Of a stretch of DNA of 64,000 bases, positions 20,875 through 45,579 are shown piece by piece (position 1 is the first letter of the stretch; every line of letters begins with the position of its first letter). The translations under genes were made by a program, and so were the position numbers. A model generated the notes under the pieces. The model was not told where the DNA came from. It saw nothing but the letters and a program-made list of their open reading frames with translations, and did not search any database. Source of the stretch: Pseudomonas hefeiensis (GTDB lineage Bacteria; Pseudomonadota; Gammaproteobacteria; Pseudomonadales; Pseudomonadaceae). The stretch lies in contig NZ_CP117449.1 of assembly GCF_030687835.1 (NCBI RefSeq), positions 4,402,001 through 4,466,000 on the forward strand, written 5' to 3'.

Positions 20875-33861
<12,987 letters not shown>

Positions 33862-37680: not shown

Positions 37681-39471
37681 ATGCCAAAAACGATTCGTAT
37701 CGGTTGCGCCAGCGCCTTCTGGGGCGATACCTGTACCGCTGCGGCGCAACTGGTTGAAGGCGCTGAACTGGACTACCTGGTGTTCGATTACCTGGCCGAG
37801 GTCACGATGTCGATCATGGCCGGGGCGCGCATGAAAGACCCTCGGGGCGGCTATGCCCCGGACTTTATCGAAGTGCTCACTCCGCTGCTTCATCGTTTAC
37901 ATGAACGCAGGATCCGCGTCATCAGCAATGCCGGCGGGATCAACCCCCAGGCCTGCGCGGCCGCTCTGCAAGCGGCCTGCGACAAGGCCGGCGTGCCCTT
38001 GAAGATCGCGGTGCTGCTGGGAGACGACCTGCAACCGCAATTGGAACAACTCGCCCGCCAGGGCATTGCCGAGATGTTCAGCGGCGCGCCCTTGCCGGCG
38101 GCGTGTGTGTCCACCAACGCTTACCTGGGTGCCCCTGGCATTGTCGAGGCCTTGCGTCTGGGAGCCGACATCGTGATCACCGGCCGGGTGGTCGACAGCG
38201 CCGTGGTCAGCGCGGCTCTGGTGCATGAGTTTGGCTGGGCCTGGCACGACTACGACAAACTGGCCCAGGCCGCATTGGCCGGGCACCTCATTGAGTGTGG
38301 GGCCCAATGCACGGGCGGTAATTTCACCGACTGGCGGGAAGTACCGGATTACGAGCACATCGGTTTTCCCATCGTTGAAATCAGCGCCGACGGCCAATTC
38401 ATCGTCACCAAGGCCGAAGGCACCGGCGGACTGGTCACGCCGCTGACGGTCGGGGAACAACTGCTCTATGAAATCGGCGACCCCCAAGGCTATCTCTTGC
38501 CGGACGTGATCTGCGACTTCAGCCAGGTCAGGTTGATCCAGCAAGGCAAGCACGCCGTGCGCGTCCAAGGCGCCAAGGGCTTGCCGCCCTCCGATCAATA
38601 CAAGGTCTGCGCCACCTGGGCCGATGGCTTTCGTTGCACCGCCCTGTGCCTGATCGCCGGCATCGATGCGGTGGCCAAGGCCGAACGGGTCAGCCAGGCG
38701 ATCATCGTCAGGACTTCGCAGATGTTCAGCCTGCGCGGCTGGACGCCCTACAGCGAGGTGAACGTCGAGCTTCTGGGCAGCGAAGCCACTTACGGCCAGC
38801 ATGGCCGGCGCCAGGACAGCCGCGAAGTGGTGATCAAACTGGCGGTGCGCCACCCCGACAAACAGCCGCTGGTGCTGTTCTCCAGGGAGATCGCCCCGGC
38901 CGCCACCGGTATGGTGCCGGGGCTGACCGGCCTGATGGGTGGCCGCCCGACCGTGTATCCACTGATTCGCGTGTTCTCGTTCCTCATCGACAAGTCCGCT
39001 TGCCGACTCGAAATCGAATTCGACGGGCAGCGGCATCCTTGCCTGCTGCCTGCCGTCGAGCCGCTGCAAACCCGCGACTTCCCGGTCGCTCCCGACTTGC
39101 CCAGACCCCAGGGCCGGGCTGACGCCAGCGTGCCATTGGTCAAACTGGCGGTGGCGCGCTCCGGCGACAAGGGCAACCACAGCAACATCGGTGTGATCGC
39201 CCGGACCCCCGAATACTTGCCGTGGATCGCCGAGGCGCTGACGCCCCAGGTGCTGGTCGACTGGATGAGCCATGTGCTCGACCCACTGCTGGGGCGCGTC
39301 GAACGCTGGTATCTGCCGGGTACCCACAGCCTGAACTTCGTGCTGGAACATGCCCTCGGCGGTGGCGGTGCCGCCAGCCTGCGCATTGATCCACAAGGCA
39401 AGGCGTTCGCTCAGCAGTTGCTGGAGATCCAGATACCGGTGCCACAGCGCATCGCCGATCAGGTCAACTAA
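37681..39471 (+). CDS. atuA: Acyclic terpene utilization protein AtuA (DUF1446)
   Basis: 596 residues. DUF1446 domain over ~1-450 (IRIGCASAFWGDTCTAAAQL, FDYLAEVTMSIMAGARMKDP, GRVVDSAVVSAAL, GAQCTGGNFTDWREVPDYEH, VTPLTVGEQLLYEIGDPQGY), then a C-terminal ~110-residue AtuA-associated domain (LAVARSGDKGNHSNIGVIAR). It is essential for growth on citronellol/geraniol in P. aeruginosa, but its reaction is not established. First gene of the operon, with ATG at 37681 preceded by GGAGGGAGC. In P. aeruginosa atuB follows; here atuC follows directly after 43 bp. Confidence 0.92.
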   Translation: MPKTIRIGCASAFWGDTCTAAAQLVEGAELDYLVFDYLAEVTMSIMAGARMKDPRGGYAPDFIEVLTPLLHRLHERRIRVISNAGGINPQACAAALQAACDKAGVPLKIAVLLGDDLQPQLEQLARQGIAEMFSGAPLPAACVSTNAYLGAPGIVEALRLGADIVITGRVVDSAVVSAALVHEFGWAWHDYDKLAQAALAGHLIECGAQCTGGNFTDWREVPDYEHIGFPIVEISADGQFIVTKAEGTGGLVTPLTVGEQLLYEIGDPQGYLLPDVICDFSQVRLIQQGKHAVRVQGAKGLPPSDQYKVCATWADGFRCTALCLIAGIDAVAKAERVSQAIIVRTSQMFSLRGWTPYSEVNVELLGSEATYGQHGRRQDSREVVIKLAVRHPDKQPLVLFSREIAPAATGMVPGLTGLMGGRPTVYPLIRVFSFLIDKSACRLEIEFDGQRHPCLLPAVEPLQTRDFPVAPDLPRPQGRADASVPLVKLAVARSGDKGNHSNIGVIARTPEYLPWIAEALTPQVLVDWMSHVLDPLLGRVERWYLPGTHSLNFVLEHALGGGGAASLRIDPQGKAFAQQLLEIQIPVPQRIADQVN

Positions 39472-39514
39472 AGGACGATCGCCATGGCGTTCGGATCGAG
39501 CACAAGGAACATCC

Positions 39515-41131
39515 ATGCCAGTCATCGAATCGCACCTTGACACTCACAGCGCCGATTTCGCCCGCAACCGCGTGGCCATGCTGGCTGGCGTGGCACACCT
39601 GCGCCAGATCGAACAGGCGGTGCTGGAGAAAGCCGCCCTGGCCCAGGCCAGGTTCGAGCAACGCGGCCAACTGCTGCCGCGCGAACGTCTGAACCTGCTG
39701 CTGGACCCCGGCGCACCGTTCCTGGAACTGGCGAGCCTGGCCGGCTACAAACTCCATGACGACAAGGACGGCAGCCAGGCCGGTGGCGGCTTGATCGCGG
39801 GAATCGGCTATGTGTCCGGCGCGCGGGTGTTAGTGGTGGCGAACAACAGCGCAATCAAAGGCGGGACCATCTCCCCCAGCGGCTTGAACAAGACCCTGCG
39901 TCTGCAACAGATCGCCATGGAGAACAAACTGCCGGTCATCACCTTGGCCGAAAGCGGCGGCGCCAACCTCAATTATGCCGCGCAGATTTTTGTCGAAGGT
40001 GCGCGCAGCTTCGCCAATCAGGCACGGATGTCGGCCATGGGCTTGCCGCAGATTACCGTGGTGCATGGCTCGGCCACCGCGGGCGGCGCCTACCAGCCGG
40101 GGCTCTCGGACTACGTGGTGGTGGTGCGCGACAAGGCACGGCTGTTTCTGGCCGGACCTCCGCTGCTCAAGGCCGCCACGGGCGAAGTCGCCACCGAAGA
40201 GGAACTGGGTGGTGCGCAAATGCATGCGCAGGTGGCGGGCACCGCTGAATATCTGGCCGAGAATGACGCCGATGGGATACGCCTGGCCCGGGAGATCGTC
40301 AGTCTGTTGCCTTGGAACGAACAACGGCCACCCCAGCCTGAGCGGAGCTGGAAAGAGCCGCGCTACCCGGCCGATGAGTTGCTGGGGTTGATCCCCGACG
40401 ATCCGAAGAAACCCTATGACGTGCGGGAAATCATCGCCCGTATCGCCGACGGTTCGGACTTCCTGGAGTTCAAAAGCGAGTTCGATCAACAGACGATTTG
40501 TGGCCACCTGCGCATTCGTGGCCAGGCCTGCGGCCTGATTGGCAACAATGGCCCGATCACGCCCAAGGGTGCGAGCAAAGCCGCGCAGTTCATCCAGCTA
40601 TGCGACCAGAGCCGCACACCGCTGCTATTCCTGCACAACACCACCGGATTCATGGTCGGCACCGAGTCGGAACAACAAGGCGTGATCAAACACGGGGCGA
40701 AGATGATCCAGGCCGTCGCCAACGCCCGTGTGCCCAAGCTGACGGTCGTGGTGGGCGGCTCCTACGGCGCCGGCAATTACGCCATGTGCGGTCGGGGGCT
40801 GGACCCACGCTTCATTTTCGCCTGGCCCAACAGCCATACGGCGGTGATGGGCGGTGCCCAGGCCGGCAAGGTTCTGCGCATCATCACGCAGGCCACGCAG
40901 ATCAAAAACGGCCTCACCCCCGACCCGAAGATGCTGGACCAGCTCGAACAAACCACCGCACAGAAACTCGACAGTCAGTCCACTGCCCTATACGGCAGCG
41001 CCAACCTGTGGGATGACGGCCTCATCGACCCGCGGGACACCCGCACGTTGCTAGGCTACCTGCTGGACATCTGCCACGCGGCTGAGCTTCGGCCGCTGCA
41101 AGCCAACAGCTTCGGTGTGGCCCGTTTTTGA
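39515..41131 (+). CDS. atuC: Geranyl-CoA carboxylase, carboxyltransferase (beta) subunit
   Basis: 538 residues, acyl-CoA carboxyltransferase fold with two crotonase-like halves: RLNLLLDPGAPFLELASLAG, SGGANLNYAAQIFVEG, GSATAGGAYQPGLSDYVV, LFLHNTTGFMVGTESEQQGV, GGSYGAGNYAMCGRGLDPRF. It takes carboxybiotin from AtuF and carboxylates cis-geranyl-CoA. The homologue LiuB acts on methylcrotonyl-CoA; assignment to Atu rests on the neighbours atuA, atuD and atuR. Start at ATG 39515 with AAGGAAC upstream. 43 bp after atuA, 45 bp before atuD. Confidence 0.9.
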   Translation: MPVIESHLDTHSADFARNRVAMLAGVAHLRQIEQAVLEKAALAQARFEQRGQLLPRERLNLLLDPGAPFLELASLAGYKLHDDKDGSQAGGGLIAGIGYVSGARVLVVANNSAIKGGTISPSGLNKTLRLQQIAMENKLPVITLAESGGANLNYAAQIFVEGARSFANQARMSAMGLPQITVVHGSATAGGAYQPGLSDYVVVVRDKARLFLAGPPLLKAATGEVATEEELGGAQMHAQVAGTAEYLAENDADGIRLAREIVSLLPWNEQRPPQPERSWKEPRYPADELLGLIPDDPKKPYDVREIIARIADGSDFLEFKSEFDQQTICGHLRIRGQACGLIGNNGPITPKGASKAAQFIQLCDQSRTPLLFLHNTTGFMVGTESEQQGVIKHGAKMIQAVANARVPKLTVVVGGSYGAGNYAMCGRGLDPRFIFAWPNSHTAVMGGAQAGKVLRIITQATQIKNGLTPDPKMLDQLEQTTAQKLDSQSTALYGSANLWDDGLIDPRDTRTLLGYLLDICHAAELRPLQANSFGVARF

Positions 41132-41176
41132 ACGTGTGAAGGACTTTTGACCGCTGCCCACAGGAGAACAATAAAA

Positions 41177-42334
41177 ATGATCTTCACCCCGGAACACGAA
41201 GCTCTGCGGCGCACCGTTCGCCAGTTTGTCGACTACCACATCAACCCCTACGTCGACGAATGGGAGAAGGCCGGACGGTTTCCCATCCACGAGGTGTTCC
41301 GCAAGGCTGGTGAACTGGGATTGCTGGGTATTTCCAAACCGGAACAATTCGGCGGCATGGGTCTGGACTACAGCTATTCGATCGCCGCCGCCGAGGAGTT
41401 CGGCACTATTCATTGCGGCGGCGTACCGATGTCCATCGGCGTACAGACCGACATGTGCACCCCGGCCCTGGCGCGGTTTGGCTCCGATGAACTGCGTGAA
41501 GCGTTCTTGCGCCCGGCCATCAGCGGTGAGCAGGTAGGTTGCATCGGCGTCTCGGAAGTCGGGGCCGGCTCCGATGTCGCCGGGCTCAAGACCACGGCCC
41601 GCAAAGATGGCGACGACTACATTATCAACGGCAGCAAGATGTGGATCACCAATTCACCGAGCGCCGATTTCATGTGCCTGCTGGCCAACACTTCGGACGA
41701 CAAGCCCCACATCAACAAATCACTGATCATCGTGCCGATGAACAGCCCTGGTATCAGCCTCGGCGGGCACCTGGACAAACTCGGCATGCGCAGTTCGGAA
41801 ACCGCCCAGGTGTTCTTTGACGACGTACGGGTGCCGCAACGCAATCGCGTTGGCCAGGAAGGCGCCGGCTTCATGATGCAGATGTTGCAGTTCCAGGAGG
41901 AACGACTGTTCGGCGCCGCGAACATGCTCAAGGGCATGGAGCACTGCATCGACAGCACCATCGCGTACTGCAAGGAGCGCAAGACCTTCGGCACCGCCCT
42001 GATCGACAACCAGGTGATCCACTTTCGCCTGGCGGAACTGGCCAGCGAAATCGAATGCCTGCGGGCGCTGGTCTACCAGGCGACCGAGCAGTACATCAAC
42101 GGCCAGGATGTGACGCGGCTGGCGTCCATGGCCAAGCTCAAGGCCGGGCGCCTGGCCCGGGAAGTCACCGACAGTTGCCTGCAATATTGGGGCGGCATGG
42201 GTTTCATGTGGGACAACCCGGTGGCACGGGCGTATCGCGACGTGCGACTGGTGTCCATCGGCGCTGGTGCGGACGAGATCATGCTGGGCATCATCTGCAA
42301 ACTCATGGGCATTTTGCCGGGCAAGAAAAAATGA
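41177..42334 (+). CDS. atuD: Citronellyl-CoA dehydrogenase (acyl-CoA dehydrogenase family)
   Basis: 385 residues, full-length acyl-CoA dehydrogenase: N-terminal helical domain, beta-domain with CIGVSEVGAGSDVAGLKTTA and KMWITNS, and a C-terminal helical domain (QYWGGMGFMWDNPVARAYRD). Oxidises citronellyl-CoA to cis-geranyl-CoA with FAD. CAGGAG precedes the ATG at 41177. The next gene is not atuE as in P. aeruginosa but a tandem-repeat array of 1.2 kb. Confidence 0.9.
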   Translation: MIFTPEHEALRRTVRQFVDYHINPYVDEWEKAGRFPIHEVFRKAGELGLLGISKPEQFGGMGLDYSYSIAAAEEFGTIHCGGVPMSIGVQTDMCTPALARFGSDELREAFLRPAISGEQVGCIGVSEVGAGSDVAGLKTTARKDGDDYIINGSKMWITNSPSADFMCLLANTSDDKPHINKSLIIVPMNSPGISLGGHLDKLGMRSSETAQVFFDDVRVPQRNRVGQEGAGFMMQMLQFQEERLFGAANMLKGMEHCIDSTIAYCKERKTFGTALIDNQVIHFRLAELASEIECLRALVYQATEQYINGQDVTRLASMAKLKAGRLAREVTDSCLQYWGGMGFMWDNPVARAYRDVRLVSIGAGADEIMLGIICKLMGILPGKKK

Positions 42335-42355
42335 ATACATCGCCTGCCAGGCCGC

Positions 42356-42430
42356 CATCGCGAGCAAGCTTTGCTCCCACAGTGGAGTTGCAACACATTC
42401 ACCTGTGGGAGCAAAGCTTGCTCGCGATGA
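42356..42430. repeat. REP pair at the head of the atuD-atuF array, AAAGCTT subfamily
   Basis: The only complete inverted pair here: ATCGCGAGCAAGCTTTGCTC and its complement, with ~25 bp between. Its right arm (from 42405) is the first of the twelve half-REPs of the array. Confidence 0.88.
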
Positions 42431-43608
42431 GGCCCTGACAGCCACCGGAAAAACCCAGGAATGACCACCATGCCCACCTTCCAAATTTAACTGTGTTCAC
42501 GCCCCATTGTGGGAGCAAAGCTTGCTCGCGATGAGGCACTGACAGCCACCGGAAAAACCCAGGAATGACTACCATGCCCACCTTCCAAATTTGACTGTGT
42601 TCACCCTCCATTGTGGGAGCAAAGCTTGCTCGCGATGAGGCCCTGACAGCCACCGGAAAACCCAGGAATGACCACCATGCTGCCTTCCAAATTTGACTGT
42701 GTTCACCCTCCATTGTGGGAGCAAAGCTTGCTCGCGATGAGGCCCTGACAGCCACCGGAAAACCCCAGGAATGACCACCATGCCCGCTTTCCAAATTTGA
42801 CTGTGTTCACCCTCCATTGTGGGAGCAAAGCATGCTCGCGATGAGGCACTGACAGCCACCGGAAAAACCCAGGAATGACCACCATGCCCGCTTTCCAAAT
42901 TTGGCTGTGTTCACCCTCCATTGTGGGAGCAAAGCTTGCTCGCGATGAGGCCCTGACAGCCACCGGAAAAACCCAGGAATGACCACCATGCCCGCTTTCC
43001 AAATTTGACTGTGTTCACCCCCCATTGTGGGAGCAAAGCTTGCTCGCGATGAAGCCCTGACAGCCACCGGAAAACCCAGGAATGACCACCATGCCCACCT
43101 TCCAAATTTAACTGTGTTCACGCCCCATTGTGGGAGCAAAGCTTGCTCGCGATGAGGCACTGACAGCCACCGGAAAAACCCAGGAATGACTACCATGCCC
43201 ACCTTCCAAATTTGACTGTGTTCACGCCCCATTGTGGGAGCAAAGCTTGCTCGCGATGAGGCCCTGACAGCCACCGGAAAACCCAGGAATGACCACCATG
43301 CTGCCTTCCAAATTTGACTGTGTTCACCCTCCATTGTGGGAGCAAAGCTTGCTCGCGATGAGGCACTGACAGCCACCGGAAAAACCCAGGAATGACCACC
43401 ATGCCCGCTTTCCAAATTTGGCTGTGTTCACCCTCCATTGTGGGAGCAAAGCTTGCTCGCGATGAGGCCCTGACAGCCACCGGAAAAACCCAGGAATGAC
43501 CACCATGCCCGCTTTCCAAATTTGACTGTGTTCACCCCCCATTGTGGGAGCAAAGCTTGCTCGCGATGAGGCACTGACAGCCACCGGAAAAACCCAGGAA
43601 TGACTACC
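42405..43608 (+). repeat. Tandem array of twelve 102-104-bp units inside the atu operon
   Basis: Half-REP copies (GTGGGAGCAAAGCTTGCTC, one with a T-to-A change) begin at 42405, 42509, 42613, 42715, 42819, 42923, 43027, 43130, 43234, 43336, 43440 and 43544. Each is followed by CTGACAGCCACCGGAAAA, a CCAGGAATGAC(C/T)ACC ribosome-binding region and an ATG. In unit 1 that ATG is at 42470, 65 bp after the REP; after the last copy the same 65-bp offset lands on the real atuF start (43609). Most units continue CCCGCTTTCCAAATTTGA or CCCACCTTCCAAATTTAA, so their ATGs encode six-residue peptides. Two units (from 42613 and 43234) are 102 bp and read ATGCTGCCT. Variant order repeats: units 1-3,5,6 resemble units 7-11. 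Confidence 0.93.
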
Positions 43609-45579
43609 ATGCCCGCCTTCAGCAAGATCCTCATCGCCAACCGCGGTGAAATCGCCTGCCGGATCCAGCGCACCGCCCAGGCCCTGGGCTATCGCACCGT
43701 GGCGGTGTTCAGCGAAGCCGACGCTGACGCGCTGCATGTGCGCATGGCCGATGAGGCGGTACTCATCGGCGCGGCACCGGTGCCGCAGTCCTACCTCAAT
43801 CAGCCGGCCATCCTCGATGCGGCCCGGCGCACTGGCGCCGATGCGATCCACCCCGGCTACGGTTTCCTCTCGGAAAACGCCGGGTTCGCCAAGGCCTGCG
43901 AAGAGGCCGGTATCGTGTTCATCGGCCCCAGCCCCGACGCCATCGACCTGATGGGCAGCAAACGCCGTGCGAAAGTCGCCATGATTGCCGCGGGCGTACC
44001 GTGCATCGCCGGTTACGAAGGCACGGATCAGGACGACGACACCTTGCGCCTTGAAGCCGAGCACATCGGCTATCCGTTGATGATCAAGGCCAGCGCCGGC
44101 GGTGGTGGCCGAGGAATGCGTCTGGTTTGGCGGGCTGAAGACCTGCTGGAACAGTTGCGCACCGCGCGCTCCGAGGCGCTGCATGGTTTTGGCAGCGATG
44201 AGCTGATCCTCGAACAGGCCTTGATCAATCCGCGGCATGTGGAAGTCCAGATTTTCGGTGATCACCACGGCAATCTTGTTCATTTGGGCGAACGGGACTG
44301 CTCGATCCAGCGACGCCACCAGAAGATCATTGAAGAAGCGCCCTGCCCGGTCATGACCGCCGATCTGCGCCAGGCCATGGGTGACGCAGCGCTCAAGGCT
44401 GGCCGCGCGGTCAACTATGTGGGCGCCGGGACCGTGGAGTTTTTGCTCGCCCCGAACGGCGGTTTTTACTTTCTGGAGATGAACACGCGCCTGCAAGTCG
44501 AACATCCGGTCACCGAGATGATCACCGGCCTGGACCTGGTGGCCTGGCAACTGGATGTAGCCGCCGGTCTGCCGCTGCCCCTGCGCCAGGACCAAATACA
44601 GCTCAACGGTCACGCCATGCAGGCGCGGCTTTACGCCGAAGACCCTGCCGAGGATTTTTTGCCTCAGAGCGGACGGTTGATCGGCTGGGAACCGCCCACC
44701 CGGGACAGCCTGCGAATCGACCACGGTCTGCTGGAAGGCCAGACCATCACCCCTTTCTACGACCCGATGCTGGGCAAAGTCATTGCCCACGGCTCCACCC
44801 GTGAACAAGCCCGACGCAAATTGTTGCGCGCGGTAGAGGATTGCGTGCTGCTCGGCGTCCAGAGCAATCAGCGATTGTTGGCGGGGTTACTCGCTCATCC
44901 GCGATTCATTGGCGGTGATTTCGATACCGGGCTTATCGGACAGGACTTCGCCAATCATGCTGCGCTGCAAATCCATGCCCCCTCGGCTGAGCAGCTCGCC
45001 ATCGCCGCGGCCTCGTTCTATCAGGCTATGCATGCAAGCCATGCACCCGGGCTGGCGGGGTGGAGCAACAATACCGGCGCGGCGCGGCGCTATCGCATCG
45101 GTCTGGGCGAGCGCGACTGGACACTGAGCCTGGCCGCCGAAGCTGGCGGCACGCTGCGCATCCGGATCGCCGAGCGTGTGATCGAGCTGCAGTGGCTGGA
45201 GTCTGATCAGTGCGGCGCAACACTGATGATCGACGGTATTCGCCAACATCATGCCTGGCGCCGCGAAGGTAATGACCTGTGGCTGTTCACTCGCCCCGGC
45301 GGCCTGCATTTGCAAGATCGGACCCAGGTACCCATCACAGCCAAGGCCAACGCCAGCGACGGCACCCTCAAAGCGCCGATGGACGGCGCTATCGTCGAGG
45401 TACTGGTCAGCGAAGGCAGCGCAGTGCGCCAAGGACAGCTGTTGATGGTGCTGGAGGCGATGAAAATGGAACATCCACTCAAAGCGGGCATCGATGGGGT
45501 GGTCAGCACATTGCAAGTCAAGCAAGGCGATCAGGTGAAAAACCGACAGGTTTTGTTGCAGGTTGAAACAGCGCACTAG
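43609..45579 (+). CDS. atuF: Geranyl-CoA carboxylase, biotin-containing (alpha) subunit
   Basis: 656 residues. Biotin carboxylase (about 1-450: KILIANRGEIACRI, GYGFLSENAGFAKAC, ATP-grasp KASAGGGGRGMRLVW, EMNTRLQVEHPVTEM), a linker domain and a C-terminal biotin-carrier domain with the lysine in VLEAMKMEHPL (near residue 622). Pairs with AtuC to carboxylate geranyl-CoA. The ATG at 43609 is chosen: AGGA lies 9 bp upstream, whereas the in-frame ATG at 43600 directly abuts it. The first codons ATG-CCC-GCC-TTC are those copied in the array upstream. No atuG/atuH follows; an exonuclease gene comes next. Confidence 0.92.
   Translation: MPAFSKILIANRGEIACRIQRTAQALGYRTVAVFSEADADALHVRMADEAVLIGAAPVPQSYLNQPAILDAARRTGADAIHPGYGFLSENAGFAKACEEAGIVFIGPSPDAIDLMGSKRRAKVAMIAAGVPCIAGYEGTDQDDDTLRLEAEHIGYPLMIKASAGGGGRGMRLVWRAEDLLEQLRTARSEALHGFGSDELILEQALINPRHVEVQIFGDHHGNLVHLGERDCSIQRRHQKIIEEAPCPVMTADLRQAMGDAALKAGRAVNYVGAGTVEFLLAPNGGFYFLEMNTRLQVEHPVTEMITGLDLVAWQLDVAAGLPLPLRQDQIQLNGHAMQARLYAEDPAEDFLPQSGRLIGWEPPTRDSLRIDHGLLEGQTITPFYDPMLGKVIAHGSTREQARRKLLRAVEDCVLLGVQSNQRLLAGLLAHPRFIGGDFDTGLIGQDFANHAALQIHAPSAEQLAIAAASFYQAMHASHAPGLAGWSNNTGAARRYRIGLGERDWTLSLAAEAGGTLRIRIAERVIELQWLESDQCGATLMIDGIRQHHAWRREGNDLWLFTRPGGLHLQDRTQVPITAKANASDGTLKAPMDGAIVEVLVSEGSAVRQGQLLMVLEAMKMEHPLKAGIDGVVSTLQVKQGDQVKNRQVLLQVETAH

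Follow-up and report, generated by a model that had tools for sequence, protein, structure and literature searches.

The translation start of atuF in Pseudomonas hefeiensis lies at the downstream end of a tandem array of twelve half-REPs, and eleven extra units of this array each carry a further copy of the atuF ribosome-binding region and first codons. Tandem REP arrays are a known kind of structure; a unit fused both to a gene start and to a non-native REPIN loop would appear to be new. The array is best explained by local tandem duplication seeded by a REPIN, with later reshuffling of blocks and a probably near-neutral effect, a reading to which we assign a probability of about 0.72.

Structure of the array upstream of atuF

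Within the window (the whole stretch of DNA analysed, 64,000 nucleotides), TRF placed the array at 42404-43620 (period, 104; copies, 11.8; matches, 95%; score, 2161), and the two remaining TRF loci of the window scored 50 and 74. The REP half TGTGGGAGCAAAGC occurs twelve times, starting at 42404, 42508, 42612, 42714, 42818, 42922, 43026, 43129, 43233, 43335, 43439, and 43543, with successive spacings of 104, 104, 102, 104, 104, 104, 103, 104, 102, 104, and 104 bp that sum to 1139 bp for the eleven extra units. The original prediction of twelve half-REPs at 102-104-bp spacing is confirmed by both TRF and the alignment of the units. The features of the region are as follows.

41177..42334, + strand: atuD-like acyl-CoA dehydrogenase, the upstream neighbour (ORF with Pfam Acyl-CoA_dh domains; stop at 42332-42334)
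42355..42433, no strand assigned: leftmost REPIN, consisting of an inverted REP arm, the loop GTGGAGTTGCAACACATTCACC, and the REP of unit 1 (sequence; fold)
42404..43542, + strand: eleven extra tandem units of 102-104 bp each (TRF; unit alignment)
42461..42490, + strand: duplicated start and mini-ORF of unit 1 (ATG1 at 42461, ATG2 at 42470, MPTFQI from ATG2, TAA at 42488-42490)
42482..42507, + strand: first copy of the 26-bp segment, loop-derived, in the variant CAAATTTAACTGTGTTCACGCCCCAT (sequence; comparison with the loops of relatives)
42875..42982, + strand: longer mini-ORF of unit 5 (35 codons from ATG1, 32 from ATG2)
43543..43608, + strand: unit 12, the last REP and the real atuF leader (sequence; orthologous leader in G035 and Q11)
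43609..45579, + strand: atuF, a biotin-dependent carboxylase subunit with biotin carboxylase and biotinyl domains, starting at ATG2 (Pfam)

The name atuD for the upstream ORF follows the first reading of the sequence. Each extra unit (units 1-11) begins with the REP half and continues with a leader of the form GAGGC(C/A)CTGACAGCCACCGG, CCCAGGA, ATG1-ACC/ACT-ACC-ATG2, the first atuF codons, and a 26-bp segment, CAAATTTGACTGTGTTCACCCTCCAT or a near variant, that fills the space from codon 4 to the following REP. An inverted partner is present for the leftmost REP alone: the left arm of this REPIN ends at ~42381, its right arm is the REP of unit 1, and the predicted hairpin is very stable (-59.2 kcal/mol). 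The other 11 of the 12 REPs are single halves, and the locus was therefore classed as a tandem REP array rather than a REPIN cluster, with head-to-tail, evenly spaced copies that include flanking sequence. A CRISPR array was rejected as an identity, the spacers not being unique and whole units differing by 5% on average. By position the array is intergenic, though its units nevertheless hold copies of the first atuF codons.

The real atuF has two in-frame candidates for its start, ATG1 at 43600 and ATG2 at 43609. ATG2 is the likely true start, since close relatives retain it, whereas in some of them GTG, GCG, or ATA stands in place of ATG1. As originally described, an ATG lies 65 bp after the REP in both unit 1 (42405 to 42470) and the last unit (43544 to 43609). 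The claim that the start region was copied in eleven extra units also held, since the CCCAGGA string and both ATGs are intact in all twelve units, and no unit in the alignment departed from the atuF leader at the SD or the ATGs. The first codons seen in the extra units place the 5' end of atuF inside the duplicated segment, again as proposed. The further statement that the first four codons, with GCT or GCC at the third, were common to several units needs qualification: nine of the 11 extra units read ATG-CCC-ACC/GCT-TTC, a 1-base deletion following ATG2 (ATGCTGCCTTCC) shifts the frame in the other two (units 3 and 9), and GCC, the codon of atuF itself at that position, is present in none of the eleven.

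Variation among the units is ordered. Units 1-11 vary at 14 columns; no differences separate units 3 and 9 or units 6 and 11, and few separate units 1 and 7 (2), 2 and 8 (2), and 5 and 10 (1). Units 1-3 thus resemble units 7-9, and units 5-6 resemble units 10-11, in the same order, giving a collinear chain of five pairs (p = 0.02, permutation of unit order) that fits duplication of a multi-unit block with the loss of one unit. Over the shared part a single base sets unit 12 apart from units 2 and 8, so that exchange seems to have reached the unit that serves atuF. The same pattern bears on whether the array is an assembly artefact, which we regard as highly improbable: repeats of ~100 bp are hard for short reads, but the genome is a single contig of 6.45 Mb, and stutter of one unit would not give variable columns and ordered blocks across the first 11 units.

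Tandem REP arrays in the genome and the genus

The REP belongs to a high-copy palindromic family, with 337 forward and 322 reverse matches in the genome within 3 mismatches and 0 for the reversed control. RAYT genes are also present, as judged by three matches to PF01797 over the cut-off, one of which (132862-133185) lies between REPs at 132735 and 133771 that are identical to those of the array over 25-33 bp. The RAYT-type gene at 132862-133185 is flanked on both sides by a 28-bp tandem repeat with GTGGGAG in its unit, in 5.9 copies on one side (positions 553-716 of stretch L018; genome 132552-132715) and 13.8 copies on the other (L018 1397-1783; genome 133396-133782).

Direct triplets of the exact REP core gave 20 matches at periods of 77-107 bp, of which 7 are in the atuF array, and 39 matches at periods of 108-138 bp, though one array can yield several matches. 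Across the genus, 27 of 398 genomes, including the source genome, hold at least one exact triplet with a period of 82-112 bp. By these counts tandem REP arrays are ordinary in this genome and genus, and the start-bearing unit is the unusual part. The original prediction had called an array fused to a gene start unusual, which stands for the start-bearing unit and not for REP arrays themselves. Its premise that REPs are usually single or paired understates the tandem REP arrays of this genome and of P. fluorescens SBW25, for which the available portions of Bertels & Rainey 2011 (PMC3116915) report 16 tandem clusters of REPINs along with several arrays of tandem REPs, of which the largest two comprise 12 REPs. 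The atuF array is like those of SBW25, as far as they are described in those portions, in its evenly spaced tandem REPs, in a host of the same genus, in the repetition of the unit together with flanking sequence (there of REPIN units), and in a size within the maximum of 12 REPs per array (PMC3116915). Unlike the atuF array, no SBW25 array is described in those portions with a unit holding a ribosome-binding site and first codons (PMC3116915).

Within the source genome, the 88-bp and ~136-bp REP or REPIN arrays share with the atuF array the REP core GCTTGCTCGCGA and resemble it in period and copy number. Several loci have an 88-bp unit of nearly one sequence, whereas the atuF unit is locus-specific, and the ~136-bp units appear to hold whole REPINs, unlike the atuF units. 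The 88-bp REP-bearing unit recurs, much alike, at the distant loci L009-L012 and in another genome (G060, locus L102), which marks it as a dispersed array type rather than a set of independent local duplications.

A gene start inside a repeat unit was sought by ORF inspection at 30 loci (L092-L121) from 27 genomes, with one or two loci per genome, and at 15 stretches of the source genome (L009-L023), 8 of which have an array by the filter applied. No clear second case was found in these sets, by a check that is crude in that ORFs running through whole arrays (e.g., L092, L094, and L116) were left ambiguous. Among the loci, L101 is the source genome, L119 and L121 show the arrays of L092 and L094 again, L114 has no array by TRF, and L021 of the stretches is the atuF array itself. 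At L107 the likely start, judged by an aldehyde dehydrogenase domain, lies 66 bp beyond the array. At two loci, L096 (~1478-1494, genome G229) and L110 (~1483-1494, genome G388), the upstream ORF seems to have its last codons and stop inside the repeated unit, so that the end of a gene would be copied there as the start of one is at atuF. Among the titles listed in a literature search, none points to a gene start within a REP array, which is no proof of absence.

The single-copy state and the 26-bp segment

From the atuD stop to ATG2 of atuF there are 1274 bp in the source genome, compared to 135 bp in Pseudomonas sp. Q11 (locus L122; 93% AtuF protein identity) and 134 bp in G035 (L063; 89%), the two closest genomes. 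The comparison of this gap among related genomes, which had been proposed at the outset, is arithmetically exact: 1274 is 135 plus the 1139 bp of the eleven extra units. Reading and TRF revealed no such array upstream of atuF in the 29 best-matching genus relatives (L063-L091), atuF itself having a match in 246 of 398 genomes including the source genome. Among named loci, 76 of 80 were scanned by TRF (L169, L170, L189, and L192 were dropped because their upstream sequence was too short), and none has an array of the atuF kind in the gap; the TRF rows among them were a repeat of 40 bp x 2.1 just upstream of atuF (L130) and one of 75 bp x 3.0 ~1 kb upstream (L183). A two-unit query against 392 genomes, with 2 candidates scored per genome, matched in five, namely the source genome and, once each, G035, G060, G146, and G231. 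The collections hold one genome per species, and the relatives that were read have one copy. An inverted REP pair occupies the atuD-atuF gap in 11 of the 12 closest relatives fetched (L063-L074), G133 being the one without, and in G410 (L072, about 2555-2663) part of the REPIN in this gap has undergone its own 47-bp tandem duplication (2.3 copies).

By reading, atuD directly precedes atuF in the source genome and its 12 closest relatives. More distant relatives (L075-L091) have an extra gene between the two, presumably atuE, whose protein ends in a sequence like FVQKRKPxW. At 37681-45579 of the window the AtuA ORF and the carboxyltransferase ORF have no gene between them, at the place expected for atuB. 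Elsewhere in the window, a 4328-aa ORF on the minus strand (20875-33861) has repeated motifs and looks by eye like a nonribosomal peptide synthetase.

The proposal that one REP and the atuF leader were duplicated in tandem is upheld in part by the single-copy relatives (Q11 and G035) and by the copied 5' end of atuF, with the amendment that the unit also contains the 26-bp segment. This segment is absent from the atuF reading frame and the leader of the relatives. In direct orientation it agrees at 20 of 22 bases with the loop that the G231 REPIN has at this site (score, 37.4; p = 0.0002), and the loops of G311 and G362 match it when inverted (scores, 32.1 and 29.1; each p = 0.0002), these three p values being based on 5000 shuffles. 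The weaker orientations also scored (G231 inverted, p = 0.0006; G311 and G362 in the same orientation, p = 0.0014 and 0.0038), several further loop comparisons fell at p = 0.01-0.05, and the partly palindromic sequence of some loops makes the calls of orientation less sharp. Compared with the left REPIN loop of the array itself, the segment scored 20.4 when inverted (p = 0.001) and 9.3 when not (p = 0.27). This left loop differs at 2 positions in 22 from that of Q11, which has the same orientation, and so looks like the native allele. Among species, the loop of the atuD-atuF REPIN appears in opposite orientations, as if the hairpin flips, both by score against the array segment (G231, L070, versus G311, L065, and G362, L067) and by eye (G035, L063, versus G060, L064, and G302, L066).

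By these comparisons the 26-bp segment is REPIN-loop DNA and not a straight copy of the loop that now adjoins it. Simple one-step duplication of the present left REPIN is inadequate, because its loop fits the segment weakly, and best when inverted, while the loops of the more distant relatives G231, G311, and G362 fit better and Q11 shares the left loop. So either the loop underwent turnover or flipped, or the segment derives from another allele or another REPIN. A flip of the left REPIN after the array had formed is made less likely by Q11, where a nearly identical loop stands in that orientation with no array beside it; the idea survives only if Q11 lost an older array. On the loop sequences, then, there are two alternatives. 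The array would predate the split from Q11 and have been lost there, recombination between the outermost REPs being able to restore the single-copy state without trace, or the segment would derive from a different allele or from some other REPIN. The 19-bp core of the segment (at most 3 mismatches) occurs at 11 sites in the array and 3 elsewhere in the genome, the latter with no REP core within about 110 bp. An exact 20-base scan of the named genomes for the segment gave 0 matches, in a collection that may omit the source genome.

Origin of the array and its bearing on atuF

A REPIN just upstream of atuF, as in this group of Pseudomonas, would have been the starting structure. A segment comprising the REPIN loop, the right REP arm, the atuF leader, and the first atuF codons would then have undergone tandem duplication, for which template switching or illegitimate joining at the REPIN hairpin is the probable mechanism. 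Growth to 12 units may have proceeded by unequal recombination between REPs, including duplications of multi-unit blocks, while the true atuF start survived at the downstream end. Similar events are known in starving Escherichia coli, where 22 of 90 sequenced novel junctions were at REPs and where, in the parts of the paper available, the authors propose that the template is switched at structured DNA and that unequal crossing over follows (PMC3161906). The likeness lies in rearrangement junctions at REP sequences; as far as those parts describe them, the E. coli amplicons are kilobases long and arose under laboratory selection (PMC3161906), whereas the atuF unit is 104 bp and natural. Counted against REPIN-seeded local duplication is the mean divergence of 5% between units, compared to ~1 difference in 78 shared positions between the unit consensus and the Q11 single copy, which leaves the age of the array ambiguous. 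atuF itself differs from that of Q11 at 17% of fourfold sites (56/329), with 92.5% nucleotide identity overall.

A two-step origin, rather unlikely in our judgement, would begin with a REPIN or half-REPIN with a G231-type loop inserting after atuF codon 4, whether RAYT-mediated or by recombination. Sister-chromosome crossing over between the inserted REP and the native leader REP would then restore atuF and leave the first tandem unit. Such a history would account for a segment that differs from the native loop and for the lack of clear microhomology at the join (TTC followed directly by CAAATTT), in a genome where RAYT-type genes are present. It also requires a stage with atuF interrupted and the loss of the left REP arm, and no REPIN with the loop of the segment was found elsewhere in the genome, the three off-array core sites being REP-less.

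If the array is transcribed with the operon, the atuF mRNA would carry 11 upstream starts that open only short, closed ORFs. From ATG2 these mini-ORFs have 6 codons in seven units, 23 codons in units 3 and 9, and 32 codons in units 5 and 10; all 11 are closed and none is fused to atuF. The TGA of the unit 5 mini-ORF overlaps ATG1 of unit 6 (ATGA), and the mini-ORF of unit 10 (43392-43499) has the same overlap with ATG1 of unit 11. No sigma-70-like promoter (shuffles mean, 0.5) and no intrinsic-terminator-like site (shuffles mean, 2.2) was found in the array, and no Rfam family matched it at the gathering score. The predicted probability that AGGA of the real SD is unpaired is 0.023 here and 0.068 in G035, low with and without the array and judged uninformative.

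Candidate effects on atuF are polarity through the 1.2-kb leader, decoy initiation, or none, and little net effect on atuF expression seems likeliest because none of the relatives examined has the array. The extra units may act as decoy starts or through their copy number. In a regulatory reading of the array, which we consider improbable, the 11 extra starts would act as decoy or relay entry points for ribosomes and copy number would tune atuF in the manner of a contingency locus, some starts being coupled by the ATGA overlaps and perhaps shielding the spacer from Rho. The intact SD string and ATGs, the closure of all 11 extra ORFs, and the overlaps of units 5 and 10 with the next start are in keeping with such a role. 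Zero variation in the 13 SD and ATG columns, however, given 14 variable columns of 104, is expected ~15% of the time by chance, so that selection on the duplicated start sites was not significant by this arithmetic and their intactness is no evidence of it. The lack of such an array in the relatives examined, the low predicted access to the real SD in both states, and the count of promoter-like sites (0 versus a shuffle mean of 0.5) also stand against regulation. More doubtful again is a natural series of twelve almost identical starts, seeded by a mobile hairpin and serving as an atuF rheostat, in which REP recombination would set copy number and would act by decoy initiation and by periodic translation of mini-ORFs that shields the 1.2-kb leader from Rho.

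How tandem REP arrays begin is apparently not a settled matter in the portions of the literature available. At this locus the duplicated segment contains a gene start and a REPIN loop, so that comparison with single-copy relatives allows its edges to be located and the structure from which it started to be identified. The array is likewise a natural test of the effect of serial upstream start sites on a bacterial gene.
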